Source of the DNA: Clostridia bacterium
GTDB taxonomy: Bacteria > Bacillota > Clostridia > Oscillospirales > Acutalibacteraceae
Assembly: GCA_017435665.1 (NCBI GenBank)
Contig: JAFSEP010000009.1
Coordinates: forward strand, 1-42,161
Length of the DNA: 42,161 bases
Reading direction: 5' to 3'
This document shows positions 7,693 through 40,115 of the stretch, piece by piece (within the stretch, counting starts at the first letter, position 1; every line of letters starts with the position of its first letter). The notes below the pieces were generated by a model. That model ran no database searches. It had not been told where the DNA came from and saw only the letters and a list, made by a program, of their open reading frames with translations. The position numbers and the translations under genes were made by a program.

Positions 7693-7705
7693 GGGCTTAT
7701 TTTAA

Positions 7706-8138
7706 TGCAGAGTGCAGAATGCAGAACGCAGAATTGTGGGACCTGCGGTCGGCAATTTATAGTCAATTTGGTATATGATGACAAAAGCCTGCCCCTTCGG
7801 GGTAGGGTGACCGCCTGCAAACTGCTGAGAACCTTCACCGTATTCCTGTATCCACGTATACGCAAAAAATACGGGTTATATTTTACAAGGTAACAACAAG
7901 ATTAAATACAACAACATCCCGCCAACAAGCTTGGCGGGATGAATCTTTAATTTTTAAGGGACGTCGAGGACGCCGTCCCCTACGGTGCAGATATTTCTGC
8001 CTTCTGCATTTTAAGAGCTCCTTCCTCTGCGAGTGAATTATATCGGCGGTATCTGACTTTATATCAGCACCAACCAAATCGGATAAAATTGCTGACCGCA
8101 GGTCCCACAATTCTGCCTTCTGCCTTCTGCATTCTGCA
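7706..8138. repeat. Composite element bounded by inverted heptamer arrays
   Basis: The left end (7706-7733) is four heptamers (TGCAGAG, TGCAGAA, TGCAGAA, CGCAGAA) followed by the core hairpin at 7732-7757. The right end (8111-8138) is four heptamers in the opposite orientation next to the same hairpin (8087-8112), so the unit has inverted ends of about 50 bp. The right part (7995-8138) is itself a complete copy of the ~100-bp core lying between two heptamer arrays. The middle holds two hairpins (one at 7915-7941) and a block at 7955-7985 matching, in inverse, 10993-11022. I see no gene in the 583-bp gap. Confidence 0.75.
7915..7941 (+). terminator. Strong hairpin, terminator-like
   Basis: CATCCCGCCAA (7915-7925) pairs perfectly with TTGGCGGGATG (7931-7941) around CAAGC, followed by a T-rich run (ATCTTTAATTTTT). 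It may end transcription from the acetyltransferase gene, though it lies 315 bp past the stop and inside a repeat. Confidence 0.5.
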
Positions 8139-8141
8139 TTT

Positions 8142-10783: not shown

Positions 10784-10816
10784 ATTTTTTTCTTCCTTTC
10801 GGGATATATTTTTTAA

Positions 10817-11060
10817 TTAAAAATTGAAAATTGAAAATGGAAAATTGTGGAGCTGCGCCGCATTTTTATCCGGTTTGGTCAGTTCTGACCTTAAGTTTGA
10901 TACCGCCGTCAAAATACACTCATTGGGGACGACGTTCCTTAAAAGCCTTCCTCTCTGAGGAAGGTGGCAGTCGCAGACTGACGGAAGGAGTCCGTAGGGG
11001 ACGACGTCCTCGGCGTCCCTTTCAAGCCCTCTCTGAAAGGAAGGCTCTTACGGTCTGCAT
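10817..11060 (+). repeat. Divergent heptamer-plus-core repeat with direct GC-rich blocks
   Basis: Four heptamers (TTAAAAA, TTGAAAA, TTGAAAA, TGGAAAA; 10817-10844) run straight into TTGTGG, the same junction as at 14538 and 7733. The sequence to about 10925 aligns with the ~100-bp core at 14539 but is diverged; the internal hairpin is kept as GGTCAG-TT-CTGACC. Two direct blocks starting GGGGACGACGT (about 10924 and 10997) follow, each ending near a GGAAGG run. No gene is seen in the 419-bp gap except the promoter and operator for the HTH gene. Confidence 0.65.
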
Positions 11061-11556: not shown

Positions 11557-11806
11557 GAAAAGTCATAGTAAAACTATGTGCAAAACTGCAATATGCCGTG
11601 CAAACCGGTAGCAGAAAAACCGCAAGCGGATTTTCCGTCAGCGGGTTTTCCGTCAGCGGAAAATCGACTACAATAAAATACTTAATAATAAAGTACTTAA
11701 TAATCAAATACTTAATAATCAATTACTTAGTTTGATATATGGGAGAAAAAAGAAAAAAACAAAAAAATTTCTGACGAAGGATGTGGATAAGTTCACAATC
11801 CTCTGA
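11557..11806 (+). pseudogene. Decayed C-terminal tail of the HTH protein
   Basis: After the stop, the same frame reads AEKPQADFPSAGFPSAENRL (11611-11673) from a 15-bp repeat (11626-11655), then a stop. The +1 frame then reads NKILNNKVLNNQILNNQLLS from 15-bp units at 11677-11730. Such ENP-type and NT-type tails belong to the intact family. Stops TAG, TAG and TAA at the front and a frame change in the middle show it can no longer be read through. Confidence 0.6.
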
Positions 11807-13025: not shown

Positions 13026-14516
13026 ATGAACGAAAGTGTAAAGAAACTTATTACGTATGCTCTTGACTGCGGTCTTATTCAGCAGGAGGACAAGGTTTAT
13101 ATGACCAACCGCATACTTGAAATTATCGGCGCAGACGAATACGAGGAGCCTGCAGAGAGCTATGAGAGCATCGAACTTGAGGCTGTCCTTTCCGATCTTA
13201 TGGACTATGCCCTTGAAAGCGGTGCCTTAAAGGAAAACGATATCACCCACAGAGACCTTTTTGACACAAAAATTATGGGTGCGCTTGTTCCTGCACCGAG
13301 TCAGGTTATCTCAAAGTTCCGTTCTCTTTACGCTTCTTCGCCCACAGAAGCAACCGACTGGTACTATAAATTCAGCTGTGACACAGATTACATAAGACGT
13401 TACAGAATAAAGAAGGATCTCAAGTGGGTTACTTCAACAAAATACGGCGACCTTGACATCACCGTTAATCTTTCTAAGCCCGAAAAGGATCCCAAGGCTA
13501 TTGCCGCCGCAAAGCTTATGAAGCAGTCAGGCTATCCCAAGTGTATGCTTTGCGTTGAAACCGAGGGCTATGCAGGCAGACTCAATGCTCCTGCAAGACA
13601 GAATCACAGAATTATCCCCATTACCATAGACAACAGTCCCTGGGGTTTCCAGTATTCTCCCTATGTTTACTATAACGAGCATTGCATCGTATTCAACAGC
13701 GAGCATACTCCCATGAAGATTGACAAGTCAGCCTTCAGAAAGCTCTTTGACTTTGTAAAGCTTTTCCCCCATTATTTTGTGGGCTCAAATGCCGACCTTC
13801 CCATTGTAGGCGGCTCAATTCTCTCTCACGAGCATTTTCAGGGCGGCAACTATGAATTTGCCATGGCTAAGGCTGAAAGCGAGGCATACTACACGGTAAA
13901 GGGCTTTGAGGATATTGAGTGCTCAAGAGTCAAGTGGCCTATGTCCGTCATCAGAATCAGCGGTAAGGACAGCGACAGACTCGTTGAGCTTGCTGACCTC
14001 ATCCTCACAAAGTGGAGGGCATACACAGACGAAGATTGCTTCATTTTCGCTGAAACTGACGGCGAGAAGCACAACACCATCACTCCTATCGCAAGAATGA
14101 AGGGTGACCGCTTCGAGCTTGACCTTGTGCTGAGAAACAACATCACCACAGACGAGCATCCTCTCGGCGTCTTCCACCCCCACGCAGAGCTTCACAACAT
14201 CAAGAAGGAAAACATCGGTCTTATTGAGGTTATGGGACTTGCAGTTCTTCCCTCAAGACTGAAGAATGAAATGGCTATGCTCAGGGAAGCTATCCTTCAG
14301 GGCAGAGATATCACCGCAGACGAGGTGCTCGCAAAGCACAGCGACTGGTTCAACAGCTTCAAGGACAGCTACACCTTCACAGAAGAAAACACAGAGGATA
14401 TTCTTCACGAGGAAATCGGTAAGGTATTTGAAAAGGTACTTGAGCACGCAGGTGTTTACAAGCGTGACGAAAACGGTGTCAAGGGATTTGACAGGTTTGT
14501 GGAAAGCCTTTCATAA
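13026..14516 (+). CDS. galT: UDP-glucose-hexose-1-phosphate uridylyltransferase, type 2
   Basis: A 496-residue Leloir-pathway enzyme of the Firmicute (type 2) GalT class, exchanging UMP between UDP-glucose and galactose 1-phosphate; relatives also take N-acetylhexosamine 1-phosphates. The N-terminal 90 residues are the helical type-2 extension. The core carries YPKCMLCVETEGYAGR near residue 180, NSEHTPMKI near residue 230 and the HIT-like site GSILSHEHFQGG near residue 265. GGGGG lies before the ATG. It fits functionally with the GH36/GH2/NahK operon 5 kb downstream: NahK makes the hexosamine 1-phosphate and GalT could use it. No galK or galE lies in the window. A heptamer-core repeat begins immediately after the stop. 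Confidence 0.95.
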   Translation: MNESVKKLITYALDCGLIQQEDKVYMTNRILEIIGADEYEEPAESYESIELEAVLSDLMDYALESGALKENDITHRDLFDTKIMGALVPAPSQVISKFRSLYASSPTEATDWYYKFSCDTDYIRRYRIKKDLKWVTSTKYGDLDITVNLSKPEKDPKAIAAAKLMKQSGYPKCMLCVETEGYAGRLNAPARQNHRIIPITIDNSPWGFQYSPYVYYNEHCIVFNSEHTPMKIDKSAFRKLFDFVKLFPHYFVGSNADLPIVGGSILSHEHFQGGNYEFAMAKAESEAYYTVKGFEDIECSRVKWPMSVIRISGKDSDRLVELADLILTKWRAYTDEDCFIFAETDGEKHNTITPIARMKGDRFELDLVLRNNITTDEHPLGVFHPHAELHNIKKENIGLIEVMGLAVLPSRLKNEMAMLREAILQGRDITADEVLAKHSDWFNSFKDSYTFTEENTEDILHEEIGKVFEKVLEHAGVYKRDENGVKGFDRFVESLS

Positions 14517-14517
14517 A

Positions 14518-14673
14518 TGCAGAATGCAGAGTGCAGAATTGTGGGACCTGCGGTCAGCAATTTTATCCGATTTGGTTGGTGCTGACATAAAGTCAGATAC
14601 CGCAGATATAATTCACTCGCAGAGGAAGGCTCTCAAAATGCAGAATGCAGAGTGCAGAATGCAAAGCACAGAA
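14518..14673 (+). repeat. ~100-bp structured core inside a heptamer array
   Basis: Three heptamers (TGCAGAA, TGCAGAG, TGCAGAA; 14518-14538) precede a 100-bp core (14539-14638), and exactly the same three resume at 14639-14659, followed by TGCAAAG and CACAGAA. The core forms two hairpins: AATTG...GACC-TGC-GGTC...CAATT and GGT-CTGAC-ATAAA-GTCAG-ACC. Its first 90 bases match the inverse copy at 8009-8110 with only two differences, one of which turns a C-G pair into U-G. The array starts one base after the galT stop codon. Confidence 0.85.
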
Positions 14674-18635: not shown

Positions 18636-18711
18636 GGTCGAGGCGACAGGACTTGAACCTGCGGCCCTCTGCTCCCAAAGCAGATGCGCTACCAAACTGC
18701 GCTACGCCTCG
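18635..18711 (-). tRNA. tRNA-Pro (anticodon UGG)
   Basis: A 77-base cloverleaf including encoded CCA. The acceptor stem CGAGGCG (18711-18705) pairs with CGCCTCG, the anticodon stem TCTGC/GCAGA closes the loop TTTGGGA (anticodon TGG), and GGTTCAAGTCC forms the T arm. It lacks a consensus promoter in the 50 bases upstream: the perfect promoter lies at 19076-19104, beyond a duplicated tRNA 5' fragment and two 110-bp repeats. Transcription must either run through these or start from a weak local site. Confidence 0.95.
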
Positions 18712-18764: not shown

Positions 18765-18984
18765 TGCCCTCTTGCGGTGCCCAAAATTCATAACGGCTTG
18801 GAGCGCCTATGAATTTTGACCGCTGCGCCATCCTCGCCTCGCTTCATCGTCCACAGGACGCACTTCGGCGACGATGCCCTCTTGCGGTGCCCAAAATTCA
18901 TAACGGCTTGGAGCGCCTATGAATTTTGACCGCTGCGCCATCCTCGCCTCGTTTCATCGTCCACAGGACGCACTTCGGCGACGA
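18765..18984 (-). repeat. Two 110-bp tandem direct repeats upstream of tRNA-Pro
   Basis: Units 18765-18874 and 18875-18984 are nearly identical (I see one difference, C/T near 18842 versus 18952). Each contains a strong stem AAAATTCATA/TATGAATTTT with inner GGC/GCC, plus a smaller stem around TCGTCC and GGACGA. There is no reading frame, and the units are far too long and alike for a CRISPR. They separate the promoter and tRNA fragment from the intact tRNA gene. Confidence 0.85.
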
Positions 18985-18991
18985 TGCCCAA

Positions 18992-37442: not shown

Positions 37443-38927
37443 ATGAAAAAGATAGGTTTTGACAATGAGAAATATCTTATAATGCAATCTGAAAAGATTA
37501 TGAACAGAAGAAAGCAGTTCGGAGGTAAGCTCTACCTTGAATTCGGCGGAAAGCTGTTCGATGATTTTCACGCATCAAGAGTTCTGCCCGGCTTTGAGCC
37601 TGACAGTAAGATGAGAATGCTTACTCAGCTGAAGGATCAGGCTGAGATAGTCTTTGCCATAAACGCAGGCGACATCGAAAAGAACAAGGTCAGAGCCGAT
37701 ACGGGTATTACCTATGACCTTGAAATTCTCAGACTCATTGACGTTTTCAGAAGCTACGGCTTCTGTGTGGGTAGCGTGGTGCTGACTCAGTTTGCGGGAC
37801 AGCCTTCTGCAGTGGGCTTCAGCAAGAAGCTCGATTCAATGGGTATCAAGAATTACAAGCACTATAAAATCGACGGCTATCCCTCAAAGGTTTCGTATAT
37901 CGTCAGTGACGAGGGCTTCGGAAAGAATGATTACGTTGAAACCGAAAGACCCATTGTTGTTGTAACGGCACCGGGTCCCGGTAGCGGAAAGATGGCAGTC
38001 TGCCTTTCTCAGCTTTATCACGAGCATAAGAGAGGTATATCTGCAGGCTATGCAAAATACGAAACCTTCCCCATCTGGAATTTGCCTCTTAATCATCCCG
38101 TAAACCTTGCATACGAGGCAGCAACGGCTGACCTTAACGATATAAATATGATTGACCCCTATCACTTTGAAGCATACAACGTGCAGACGGTCAACTATAA
38201 CAGAGATGTTGAAATTTTCCCTGTGCTCAAGGCGATATTTACTCAGATTCTCGGTGAGTCTCCCTATAAGTCACCTACGGATATGGGTGTTAATATGCTC
38301 GGCTACTGCATAACCGATGAGGAATCAGTCAGGGAAAGCGCAAAGAACGAAATCATCCGCCGTTACTATGCCGCTATGTGCAAAAAGCGCAAGGGCAGAA
38401 GCAACGACGATGAAATATCAAAGATTGAAGTTCTTATGGAAAAGGCTGAGATTGCACCTGAGGACAGAAAGGTTGTTGTGGCGGCAAAGGAAAAGTGCGA
38501 GGTATCGGGTGTAACTGCCTGTGCAATAGAAATCGGTGAAAACGCAATTATCACCGGTAAGAATTCGTCACTTCTCGGTGCTGCATCGGCAATGCTTCTT
38601 AATGCAATGAAGTATCTTGCAGGTATTCAGGACGACATTCTCCTTATTTCGCCCGTTATCATTGAGCCTATCCAGAAGCTCAAGACGGAGCATTTCGGAA
38701 GCGATAATCCCAGACTTTCCGTTTCGGAGGTGCTTATGGCACTTTCAATCTGTGCCGCAACAAATCCCATGGCACAGCACGCTCTCAATCAGATTTCAAA
38801 GCTGAAGGGCTGCGAAATGCACTCAACGGCAATTCTCTCAAGTGACGATGAAAGCACAATAAAGAAGCTTGGAATAAATCTTACAACGGAAGCAGAGTAT
38901 GAAAGTGCAAAACTATTCCACACTTGA
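37443..38927 (+). CDS. DUF1846 protein
   Basis: A 494-residue cytoplasmic protein of the DUF1846 family, conserved in anaerobic Firmicutes and some streptococci, with no settled function. Recognisable blocks are KIGFDNEKYLIMQSEKIMNR at the N-terminus, LYLEFGGKLFDDFHASRVLP, VVVTAPGPGSGKMAVCLSQL (a glycine-rich phosphate-loop-like stretch near residue 180) and the cysteine-containing MLGYCITDEE. The ATG at 37443 is chosen for its GGGGAT and conserved start; the frame extends 10 codons upstream without a ribosome site. It ends six bases before the heptamer array of the four-helix-bundle element. Confidence 0.92.
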   Translation: MKKIGFDNEKYLIMQSEKIMNRRKQFGGKLYLEFGGKLFDDFHASRVLPGFEPDSKMRMLTQLKDQAEIVFAINAGDIEKNKVRADTGITYDLEILRLIDVFRSYGFCVGSVVLTQFAGQPSAVGFSKKLDSMGIKNYKHYKIDGYPSKVSYIVSDEGFGKNDYVETERPIVVVTAPGPGSGKMAVCLSQLYHEHKRGISAGYAKYETFPIWNLPLNHPVNLAYEAATADLNDINMIDPYHFEAYNVQTVNYNRDVEIFPVLKAIFTQILGESPYKSPTDMGVNMLGYCITDEESVRESAKNEIIRRYYAAMCKKRKGRSNDDEISKIEVLMEKAEIAPEDRKVVVAAKEKCEVSGVTACAIEIGENAIITGKNSSLLGAASAMLLNAMKYLAGIQDDILLISPVIIEPIQKLKTEHFGSDNPRLSVSEVLMALSICAATNPMAQHALNQISKLKGCEMHSTAILSSDDESTIKKLGINLTTEAEYESAKLFHT

Positions 38928-38932
38928 TTAAG

Positions 38933-39491
38933 TGCAAAACGCAAAGCGCAAAGTGCAAAACGAGGTGCGACCATGGATAGTATTATTGAAAAGAAAAGTT
39001 TTGATTTTGCGGTGAGGATAGTAAATCTTTACAGGCATCTGACGGCTGACAAAAAAGAGTTCGTTCTGTCAAAGCAACTTCTGAGAAGCGGAACGAGCAT
39101 AGGTGCAAATGTTGCTGAAGGTGAGAGAGGTCAGTCTAAGCCGGATTTCAATTCAAAAATGAATAAAGCACTGAAAGAAGCAAATGAAACATATTATTGG
39201 TTAAGACTTTTGCATAAAACCGATTTCTTAACCGAAAAAGAATTCAAAAGCATAGAATCTGACATAAAAGAAATTATTGCAATTTTAATTTCTATATGCA
39301 AAAAGACAAACACAAAGTAAGTGCAAAGCGCAAAACGGTTTTGCGGTAAAGCGGCACTTGAAAACAAAACTAGTAAATTTTTGTAAAGTTAAAGAAACAG
39401 AACAAAAAGCAATGCAGAGTGTAAGCATTAAGGCAAGTCGCTAACGGTTGATTCCGTTTTGCGTTTTGCGTTTTGCACTTTGCGTTCTGCA
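38933..39491. mobile_element. Heptamer-bounded element carrying a four-helix-bundle gene
   Basis: The left end has four heptamers in tandem (TGCAAAA, CGCAAAG, CGCAAAG, TGCAAAA; 38933-38960). The right end has five in inverse orientation (39457-39491; on the minus strand TGCAGAA, CGCAAAG, TGCAAAA, CGCAAAA, CGCAAAA). Two more direct units (39322-39335) follow the gene and form a hairpin CGCAAAACGGTTTTGCG. The single gene inside is the S23/Avd-like protein at 38973. The element fills the DUF1846-queT gap. No target-site duplication or transposase is seen; calling it mobile is an inference from this layout and the related arrays elsewhere in the window. Confidence 0.55.
38973..39320 (+). CDS. Four-helix-bundle protein (S23/23S-rRNA-IVP family)
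   Basis: A 115-residue, all-helical basic protein of the family first known from ORFs inside 23S rRNA intervening sequences and related in fold to the Avd accessory protein of diversity-generating retroelements. The family signature is plain: FAVRIVNLYRHL, SKQLLRSGTSIGANVAEGER, SKPDFNSKMNKALKEANETY, YWLRLLHKTDFL. It likely pentamerises and binds nucleic acid, but no function is proven outside retroelements. GAGGTG lies five bases before the ATG, immediately after the left heptamer array. No rRNA, reverse transcriptase or variable repeat is in the window. Length is complete. Confidence 0.92.
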   Translation: MDSIIEKKSFDFAVRIVNLYRHLTADKKEFVLSKQLLRSGTSIGANVAEGERGQSKPDFNSKMNKALKEANETYYWLRLLHKTDFLTEKEFKSIESDIKEIIAILISICKKTNTK

Positions 39492-39529
39492 TTTAACTTG
39501 ATGTATAACACACAATCCCCAACGCAATA

Positions 39530-39581: not shown

Positions 39582-40115
39582 TTGAATAAGCAAAGAAAAA
39601 CCACCTTTTATCTCACTCAGGCGGCAATTATTGCTGCCCTATATGCAGCTTTGGTGTATCTGCAGAATATGCTTGTGCCCAACTCGGCAACACTGGCAGT
39701 TCAGGTGAGGGTAGCCGAAGCACTGACAATGCTCAGCGTTATCACCCCTGCGGCAATACCGGGACTTACACTGGGCTGTCTGCTTGCGAACTTTACGTCA
39801 ATTCAGGTTATGCCCCTTGACGTGATTTTCGGCACACTTGCAACCTTCCTTGCATCGGTCTGTATGTACAGACTCAGAAGTGTGAGATACAGAAACATAT
39901 CACTTCTGTCGGCGCTGATGCCCGCTGTATTCAACGGGGTAATAATCGGTCTTGAGCTGACATTCTTCATCCCCGACCACAGCGGCTCAATACTTACCGT
40001 GTTCCTGACTCAGGGGGGACTTGTGGCTCTCGGTGAAGTAATATCGGTTATGCTTCTTGGCATACCTTTTATAAGAACGGTTGAAAAAAGAGAATTATTT
40101 AAAAAGTTTAACTGA
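39582..40115 (+). CDS. queT: QueT family queuosine-precursor transporter
   Basis: A 177-residue, membrane-spanning substrate-binding (S) component of an ECF transporter, thought to import the queuosine precursor preQ1 or preQ0 or queuine. Five to six hydrophobic segments fill the protein, beginning TQAAIIAALYAALVYLQNML, with the conserved VQVRVAEALTMLSVITPAAI and GLTLGCLLANF of the family. No queuosine-synthesis gene is in the window, fitting a salvage role. The start is TTG at 39582 with GGAGG eight bases upstream in the tail of the probable preQ1 leader. It is followed 22 bp later by a sugar symporter, likely in the same transcript. Confidence 0.93.
   Translation: MNKQRKTTFYLTQAAIIAALYAALVYLQNMLVPNSATLAVQVRVAEALTMLSVITPAAIPGLTLGCLLANFTSIQVMPLDVIFGTLATFLASVCMYRLRSVRYRNISLLSALMPAVFNGVIIGLELTFFIPDHSGSILTVFLTQGGLVALGEVISVMLLGIPFIRTVEKRELFKKFN

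Follow-up and report, generated by a model that had tools for sequence, protein, structure and literature searches.

MITEs and their parent insertion sequences have inverted ends and short target duplications, with gene-less copies lying alongside a coding member, and REP/RAYT systems consist of many short palindromic intergenic units that are tied to one small protein family. Avd of diversity-generating retroelements is a small four-helix-bundle protein. For the S23 family, we know of no nuclease or catalytic activity and of no HUH motif. An S23 open reading frame is present in the 428-nt intervening sequence of the 23S rRNA of Coxiella, and, as far as the available part of that article goes, the mobility of intervening sequences has been suggested (PMC4990558). 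Heptamer repeats are over-represented in bacterial genomes, an excess for which slippage has been suggested as the cause, and patterns of the heptamer GGGAATC number 186 and 183 in two Xanthomonas genomes, some of them as inverted pairs (PMC4692102, available sections). These sections make no tie between heptamers and S23, and the words "four helix" occur 0 times in that text. Finally, Gut-1 RNA (RF01706) is a noncoding RNA that, according to the available part of its description, is known only from environmental sequences (PMC2864571).

The elements described here resemble the Coxiella intervening sequence in that S23 lies between inverted repeats, in having heptamers by the start codon and in size (about 420–570 bases versus 428 nt; PMC4990558, available part). 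They differ from rRNA intervening sequences in that their settings are operons of protein-coding genes, plasmids and positions behind tRNA genes rather than 23S rRNA, in that they bear no sign of RNA-strand constraint, and in that empty sites, target duplications and gene-less relatives are seen. They share with MITEs inverted ends, short target duplications and gene-less copies in addition to a coding member, but their ends are locus-specific heptamer arrays rather than a conserved family sequence, and no known transposase lies inside. As with REP/RAYT, many short intergenic units are tied to one small protein family; here, however, the units are heptamers and the protein is a four-helix bundle. 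The arrays are like the heptameric repeats of Xanthomonas, Nostoc and other bacteria in being tandem, intergenic and sometimes in inverted pairs (PMC4692102, in the portion available), and an S23 protein named XCC0516 (PDB 2gsc) is a relative of the protein studied here. Beyond the Coxiella paper (PMC4990558, seen in part), no account linking S23, heptamers and mobility was found among the titles and abstracts listed in a literature search, with subscription papers and preprints mostly outside it. Heptamer repeats were already known, but as that link was not found we regard S23 and its arrays as a new kind of system, to which rRNA intervening sequences come closest among known forms. We propose, with a probability of roughly two in three, that S23 is the single gene of tiny mobile DNA elements whose ends are heptamer arrays, and that it serves as their specificity or mobility factor.

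The S23 locus between DUF1846 and queT

The window, by which we mean the whole 42,161-base stretch that was analysed, is contig C41 of a 2.23-Mb genome (G000). Its S23 gene is preceded by a DUF1846 gene (37443–38927) and followed by queT (39582–40115), and the following features lie between or overlap these neighbors:

38922–38928, no strand: left copy of the 7-base direct repeat ACTTGAT, a candidate target-site duplication, which holds the TGA stop codon of DUF1846
38929–39495, plus strand: proposed mobile element of 567 bases (from similarity to copies elsewhere and absence in L099 and L100)
38930–38959, plus strand: left arm, tandem heptamers of the type RRYGCAR (AGTGCAA, AACGCAA, AGCGCAA, AGTGCAA; TRF, period 7, 4.3 copies)
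38973–39320, plus strand: S23, a four-helix-bundle gene encoding 115 amino acids (PF05635, TIGR02436, match to PDB 2rld, AlphaFold model)
39320–39345, plus strand: third short array, after the S23 stop codon, ending in the hairpin CGCAAAAC-G-GTTTTGCG (sequence reading)
39455–39494, minus strand: right arm, inverted heptamers (TRF, period 7, 5.7 copies)
39496–39502, no strand: right copy of ACTTGAT (sequence reading)

The heptamer array on the left, the inverted array on the right and the extra units with a hairpin after the stop codon had all been picked out in a sequence-only reading of this DNA, and TRF and inspection of the sequence bear them out. The hairpin occupies 39329–39345, directly 3′ of the stop codon, and the post-stop array together with its hairpin recurs at four other S23 loci (L157, L158, L159 and L168). 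The element itself is better drawn as the 567-base unit listed above, with the ACTTGAT direct repeats as its flanks. By one scoring rule the window contains six arrays with a lag of 7 and none with lags of 5, 6, 8, 9 or 10, and each of 60 dinucleotide shuffles of the window contained no lag-7 array. Six such arrays in 42 kb, compared with none at other lags and none in shuffled sequence, are therefore not the product of chance. Rfam searches revealed no rRNA match in the window; the element is not inside 23S rRNA but between two protein-coding genes. A stretch before queT that looked by eye like a preQ1 riboswitch had no Rfam match at the gathering score and is not claimed as one.

In profile searches the 115-residue product matched PF05635 with 103.8 bits (cut-off 33.8) and TIGR02436 with 113.5 bits (cut-off 24), and these searches recognized no nuclease domain in it. 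An AlphaFold2 model (mean pLDDT 94.3) has four helices, at residues 4–25, 31–51, 56–82 and 88–113, and a set of 12 diverse S23 sequences shows no variation at K8, L19, Q35, R38, S42, N46, E49, A66, E72, L79 and E100. The protein had earlier been called Avd-like, a label that its sequence does not sustain: a profile search of the PDB returned only 2rld and 2gsc, each of them one entry with five chains, and no Avd chain up to an E value of 5. A separate comparison with the PDB matched 2rld at an E value of 7e-38. S23 is like Avd in being a small four-helix bundle, but it differs in its setting, as a profile search of the genome for RVT_1, the reverse transcriptase expected of a diversity-generating retroelement, gave no match.

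Filled sites, empty sites and copies elsewhere

The DUF1846 gene is present in 33 of 34 genomes of the genus, and we read 30 DUF1846 loci, one of which was that of the window. In the two best relatives (L099 and L100, with 70% and 61% protein identity) DUF1846 and queT are adjacent with no element between them, an arrangement that the sequence-only reading had named as a test. At the other 27 of the 29 relatives' loci queT was not found; there is another neighbor, or the locus ends too early. Copies of the window element were found in new places. In two named metagenome-assembled genomes (L157 and L158) it lies between other genes, at 87% and 85% DNA identity, and the similarity in L157 begins at 38930 and spans 38930–39381 and 39440–39491. 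A further locus, L168, has the site of L157 and L158, with the heptamer changed from the GCAAAAC to the GCAGAAC type in all three of its arrays (left, middle and right). At L159 the first thing present is the 3′ end of a second S23 gene, which is what one would expect after tandem duplication between direct arrays. At L078 S23 has an identical pair of inverted heptamer arrays on either side, an arrangement like that of a composite transposon or a tandem duplication.

The pgk–tpi–gpmI operon, read in 30 genomes of the genus, has S23 elements at five places in four genomes (L171, twice, L174, L178 and L179) and gene-less inverted arrays at six places (L178, L180, L185, L195, L197 and L198), and many of its junctions are short (24–60 bases). 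Gene-less copies, L338 among them, share their ends with a coding member, as is the case for MITEs.

The sites were resolved most finely in conjugative plasmids of Nostocales, in which an S23 element is present in three records (Trichormus variabilis ATCC 29413 and 0441, and Scytonema NIES-4073) and absent from six whose flanks are 97.3%–97.6% identical. The Trichormus element is 423 bases long, S23 is its only gene (366 of these bases), and it is accompanied by a 5-base duplication, GTAAT, the junctions having been read in four of the six empty sites. If autonomous, it would be smaller than any autonomous bacterial insertion sequence known to us. The Scytonema copy has the same GTAAT duplication but is 14 bases (two heptamers) shorter. 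The same plasmid site holds a decayed copy of S23 in Nostoc C052 and, in Brasilonema, a gene-less heptamer element of 76–78 bases with TAATTAA on both sides. Thus, as judged by comparison of sequences, the elements are mobile, with precise filled and empty sites of the kind expected of transposable elements; in the cyanobacterial plasmids these sites are exact to the base.

Candidate target duplications are GTAAT, which is clear at the Trichormus site, TAATTAA, ACTTGAT and TTCTA, which is found on both sides of L241. Each of GTAAT, TAATTAA and TTCTA either overlaps the upstream gene's stop codon or lies directly against it, and the same is true of ACTTGAT in the window. A duplication test on 56 loci gave no significant result (4.02 versus 3.87, standard deviation 0.11), and a refined test, in which L168 was counted twice because of its two ORF rows, gave a weak one (strict, 1.23 versus 0.93, standard deviation 0.20; loose, 2.79 versus 2.17, standard deviation 0.20). 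ACTTGAT was the top-scoring case in the strict test of the 56 loci, for which null pairings had a mean of 0.30 loci with at least 6 bases. Meanwhile, comparison of four plasmid elements with homologous empty sites (L234 with L339, L246 with L340 and L343, L240 with L341, and L239 with L342) revealed no clean duplication. Given these results we do not hold target duplication to be a general rule.

Heptamer arrays and S23 clades

Homologs of S23 had been expected to carry heptamer arrays at their flanks. Among 98 S23 ORFs in 97 loci of the genus, arrays with a lag-7 score of at least 14 were found upstream of 48 and downstream of 36, compared with 19 of 525 control segments, and of the periods from 4 to 20 only 7 and its double were enriched to that level at S23 genes. 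A broader set of 156 S23 loci was composed of those of the genus, 29 class loci (the best 29 of the class matches), 14 named loci and 15 of 16 fetched plasmid loci (L238 was left out for want of annotation, and L327 and later plasmid loci lie outside the set); three of 144 S23 ORFs were dropped as exact repeats. Tandem arrays were seen at 92 of the 156 loci (class A), hairpin-spaced heptamers at 33 (class B) and neither at 31. Class B, defined as one 7-mer present at least four times upstream and spaced by mini-hairpins, was recognized at 33 of the 60 loci without tandem arrays, compared with 8 of 279 control segments. The taxa with class A arrays include Cyanobacteriota, Bacteroidota (L244) and Bacillota, and an alphaproteobacterial locus (L243) scored 10.5 on both sides, under the cut of 13. 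S23 was matched by 2 of 50,697 phage records and at four loci in viral contigs, one of them good.

The arms of a locus are inverted copies of one another. Where both arms scored at least 10, the left heptamer was exactly the reverse complement of the right one at 36 of 61 loci and within one base of it at 57 of the 61, whereas arms from different loci matched within one base in 10.8% of 3,660 pairs. The 92 tandem loci have 55 distinct heptamers, of which 37 contain AAT or AGT in some rotation (18.8, with a maximum of 29, in 1000 letter shuffles). Heptamer distance tracks protein distance, with a Mantel r of 0.52 and at most 0.18 in 2000 permutations, and with orthologous loci contributing to, and inflating, both the counts and the Mantel value. 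On an S23 tree with many unresolved forks (150 rows and 123 columns, 6 of the 156 proteins having been left out as shorter than 85 residues), a single change suffices for the difference between classes A and B (200 shuffles needed 28.5 on average and never fewer than 23), and three changes suffice for the RRYGCAR type (20.5 on average and never fewer than 13).

The elements mostly lie in the direction of transcription. Among 81 class A loci, crude ORF calling put the upstream gene on the same strand in 53 cases and on the opposite one in 14 (not called in 14), and the downstream gene on the same strand in 65 cases and on the opposite one in 13 (not called in 3). The end of a same-strand ORF lies within 80 nt of the left arm at 44 of 68 loci and within 12 nt at 31 of 68, the latter being a count with no matched control. 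A terminator precedes the left arm at 9 of 68 loci, compared with 5 of 615 random points; insertion behind terminators is thus enriched yet not the rule, stop codons being commoner. Of the class B loci, 15 of 33 follow a same-strand tRNA gene, and S23 follows a tRNA gene at 16 of 60 non-tandem loci versus 5 of 81 tandem ones.

The sequence-only reading had also held that the heptamer pattern recurs elsewhere in the window around cores without genes. The arrays in question are as follows:

7704–7734, plus strand: left heptamer arm (AATGCAG type) of a gene-less element (TRF)
8110–8140, minus strand: inverted right arm of a gene-less element (TRF)
10815–10847, plus strand: array of another heptamer, AATTGAA (TRF)
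14516–14539, plus strand: gene-less heptamer array with the core AATTGTGGGACCTGCGGTC in common with the 8110–8140 arm (TRF)
14637–14663, plus strand: second heptamer array, in the same orientation as 14516–14539 (TRF)

Gene-less arrays do exist, and those at 7704–7734 and 8110–8140 form an inverted pair, but the arrays at 14516–14539 and 14637–14663 share one orientation, and that at 10815–10847 is made of a different heptamer. In the genome as a whole, three RRYGCAR units were matched 74 times (41 times on one strand and 33 on the other, with no match in the reversed control), but of its eight S23 genes only one is of the RRYGCAR type. Near-identical AATGCAG arrays lie 250–400 bases from the starts of contigs C31, C46, C63 and C64 of the same genome, as if the assembly had broken at a multicopy repeat.

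At least 17 RRYGCAR array matches were found in 13 of the 34 genomes of the genus, and 12 of these 13 have an S23 gene with the matching heptamer; the exception, G014, has 29 array matches and no S23 that we could find, and its genome is 82% complete. The remaining 21 genomes have 0 to 5 matches, and no S23 of that type was seen in them. As a test of the prediction, we compared genomes with and without S23: 20 S23-free genomes of the class, sampled in 20-kb stretches (685 kb), had no heptamer arrays, whereas S23-bearing genomes had nine in 604 kb (three in 20 genomes of the class, 321 kb, and six in 20 genomes of the genus, 283 kb). On a triosephosphate-isomerase tree of 29 genomes, from which G009 was left out, S23 type and array abundance are both clustered, so that few of the changes are independent; two independent pairs, on starred branches, go in the expected direction.

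How the elements might move

In the mechanism that we propose, a free-standing S23 gene would be all that a tiny mobile DNA element encodes, and each element would be bounded by inverted arrays of its own heptamer. Insertion would be at the level of DNA, in most cases directly after a stop codon or a terminator and along the direction of transcription, with a target duplication of 5–7 bases where this can be read; of this, the sequences show precise empty and filled sites, copies in new places and arms that are inverted copies. S23, probably a pentamer, would bind the heptamer arms as a specificity or mobility factor, and S23 and its own heptamer would change together. The DNA might be cut by S23 itself or by a host recombinase, and gene-less arrays of the same heptamer would be products of internal deletion or decay that depend on S23. 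The uniformity of the arms may come from slippage and template switching across the palindrome, with recognition by S23 selecting the heptamers that fit. No gene other than S23 was seen in the elements, which makes S23 the leading candidate for a mobility or end-recognition protein; its binding to the arms and any catalysis by it we infer. The idea that the window holds an autonomous element was right as to a mobile unit, its heptamer flanks and its empty sites, and the further idea that S23 moves or maintains the gene-less relatives is a proposal to which its place as the only gene, the match of heptamer to clade and the co-occurrence of the two point.

It is unlikely, in our judgment, that S23 is a passenger or regulator and that mobility is supplied to the elements from another part of the genome, by a transposase, an integrase or a replication process. 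The lack of a recognized nuclease domain in S23 would fit such a role, as would the gene-less arrays, whose existence means that the S23 gene is not needed in cis. But with 55 heptamers in 92 loci the ends vary from locus to locus, whereas a single transposase would be expected to recognize conserved ones, the heptamers follow the S23 clade, and the sampled S23-free genomes have no arrays.

Less likely again is an RNA-level element like an rRNA intervening sequence, in which the arms would pair in the transcript, RNase III would cut and copies would arise via RNA and a reverse transcriptase. S23 is indeed the protein of rRNA intervening sequences, and the Coxiella intervening sequence ends in inverted repeats that form a stem of 28 bp and carries three heptamers in tandem ahead of its ORF, as described in the part of PMC4990558 available. 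Insertion is mostly along the direction of transcription, and six elements fold better than their shuffles (z −3.8 to −8.1). A stem maintained as RNA, however, would tolerate G-U pairs, and mismatches between the arms show no such excess (43 G-T versus 42 A-C in 1,460 pairs from 49 loci). Moreover, RVT_1 was found in 6 of the 34 draft genomes of the genus, and in neither the genome of the window nor 27 others. The equal numbers of the two mismatches, the absence of RVT_1 from most genomes and the target duplications, as at the best-resolved site, together favor insertion at the level of DNA. A −10-like box follows the array at 11 of 33 hairpin-spaced loci (control, 56 of 625), so that the S23 mRNA of those loci may be without the array. 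In view of the wobble test and the search for reverse transcriptases, an RNA stem is not our reading of first choice.

Very improbably, the arrays are simple-sequence repeats formed by polymerase slippage and template switching, with S23 nearby by chance or through a common intergenic preference. In the literature the heptamer excess has been tentatively put down to slippage (PMC4692102, available sections), and two near-identical elements, L327 and L337, differ by two heptamer units. Slippage may be a route to uniformity of the units, but it does not account for enrichment of period 7 (and 14) only, for arms that are inverted copies, for whole elements present or absent as units, or for the absence of arrays from the sampled S23-free genomes. 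That the element is an old, vertically inherited regulatory unit of a DUF1846–queT operon, as its sense orientation and intergenic place might suggest, is scarcely credible given the empty sites of L099 and L100 and the near copies elsewhere in L157 and L158.

If S23 is the factor that we propose, a function would be assigned to a widespread orphan protein family, and there would be an explanation for the excess, in bacterial genomes, of repeats with just this unit length of seven. The old question of the mobility of rRNA intervening sequences would become directly testable, and a transposon family would have a new route to diversification, in which the recognition of the ends shifts along with the protein from one locus to the next. 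A more sweeping version is possible, though we lean against it: S23 proteins would form a novel class of proteins for transposition that lack any known recombinase fold. Every member would recognize its own heptamer, in autonomous DNA transposons of about 420–570 bases with gene ends as their insertion sites, and the heptamer excess, Gut-1 RNA and rRNA intervening sequences would all be its traces.

The proposal would also suggest the nature of Gut-1 RNA. Rfam covariance searches of 18 hairpin-spaced S23 loci gave eight matches to Gut-1 (RF01706) in six of them:

L006: 1961–2035
L073: 1953–2025
L075, both strands: 1290–1360 and 1408–1476
L082: 1963–2038 and 268–342
L088: 1929–2002
L092: 1294–1369

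All of these lie within hairpin-spaced heptamer arrays next to an S23 gene, except the match at 268–342 of L082, which lies apart; neither the window nor L001 has a match at the gathering score. What is described as Gut-1 may thus be an array of DNA palindromes and not a separate RNA.

Finally, we note some minor features. In cyanobacterial plasmids S23 is found inside CRISPR–Cas operons at three loci (L232, L233 and L236), twice between cas6 and cas4 and once, in L236, between cas10/cmr2 and cmr3, where the array is imperfect; such genes could be mistaken for Cas accessory genes. The window also contains two 15-base tandem arrays (11625–11729; TRF) at the end of a region of replication- or phage-like reading frames, and a 110-base unit in two tandem copies that match at 99% (18765–18989), not far from a tRNA gene (18638–18711).
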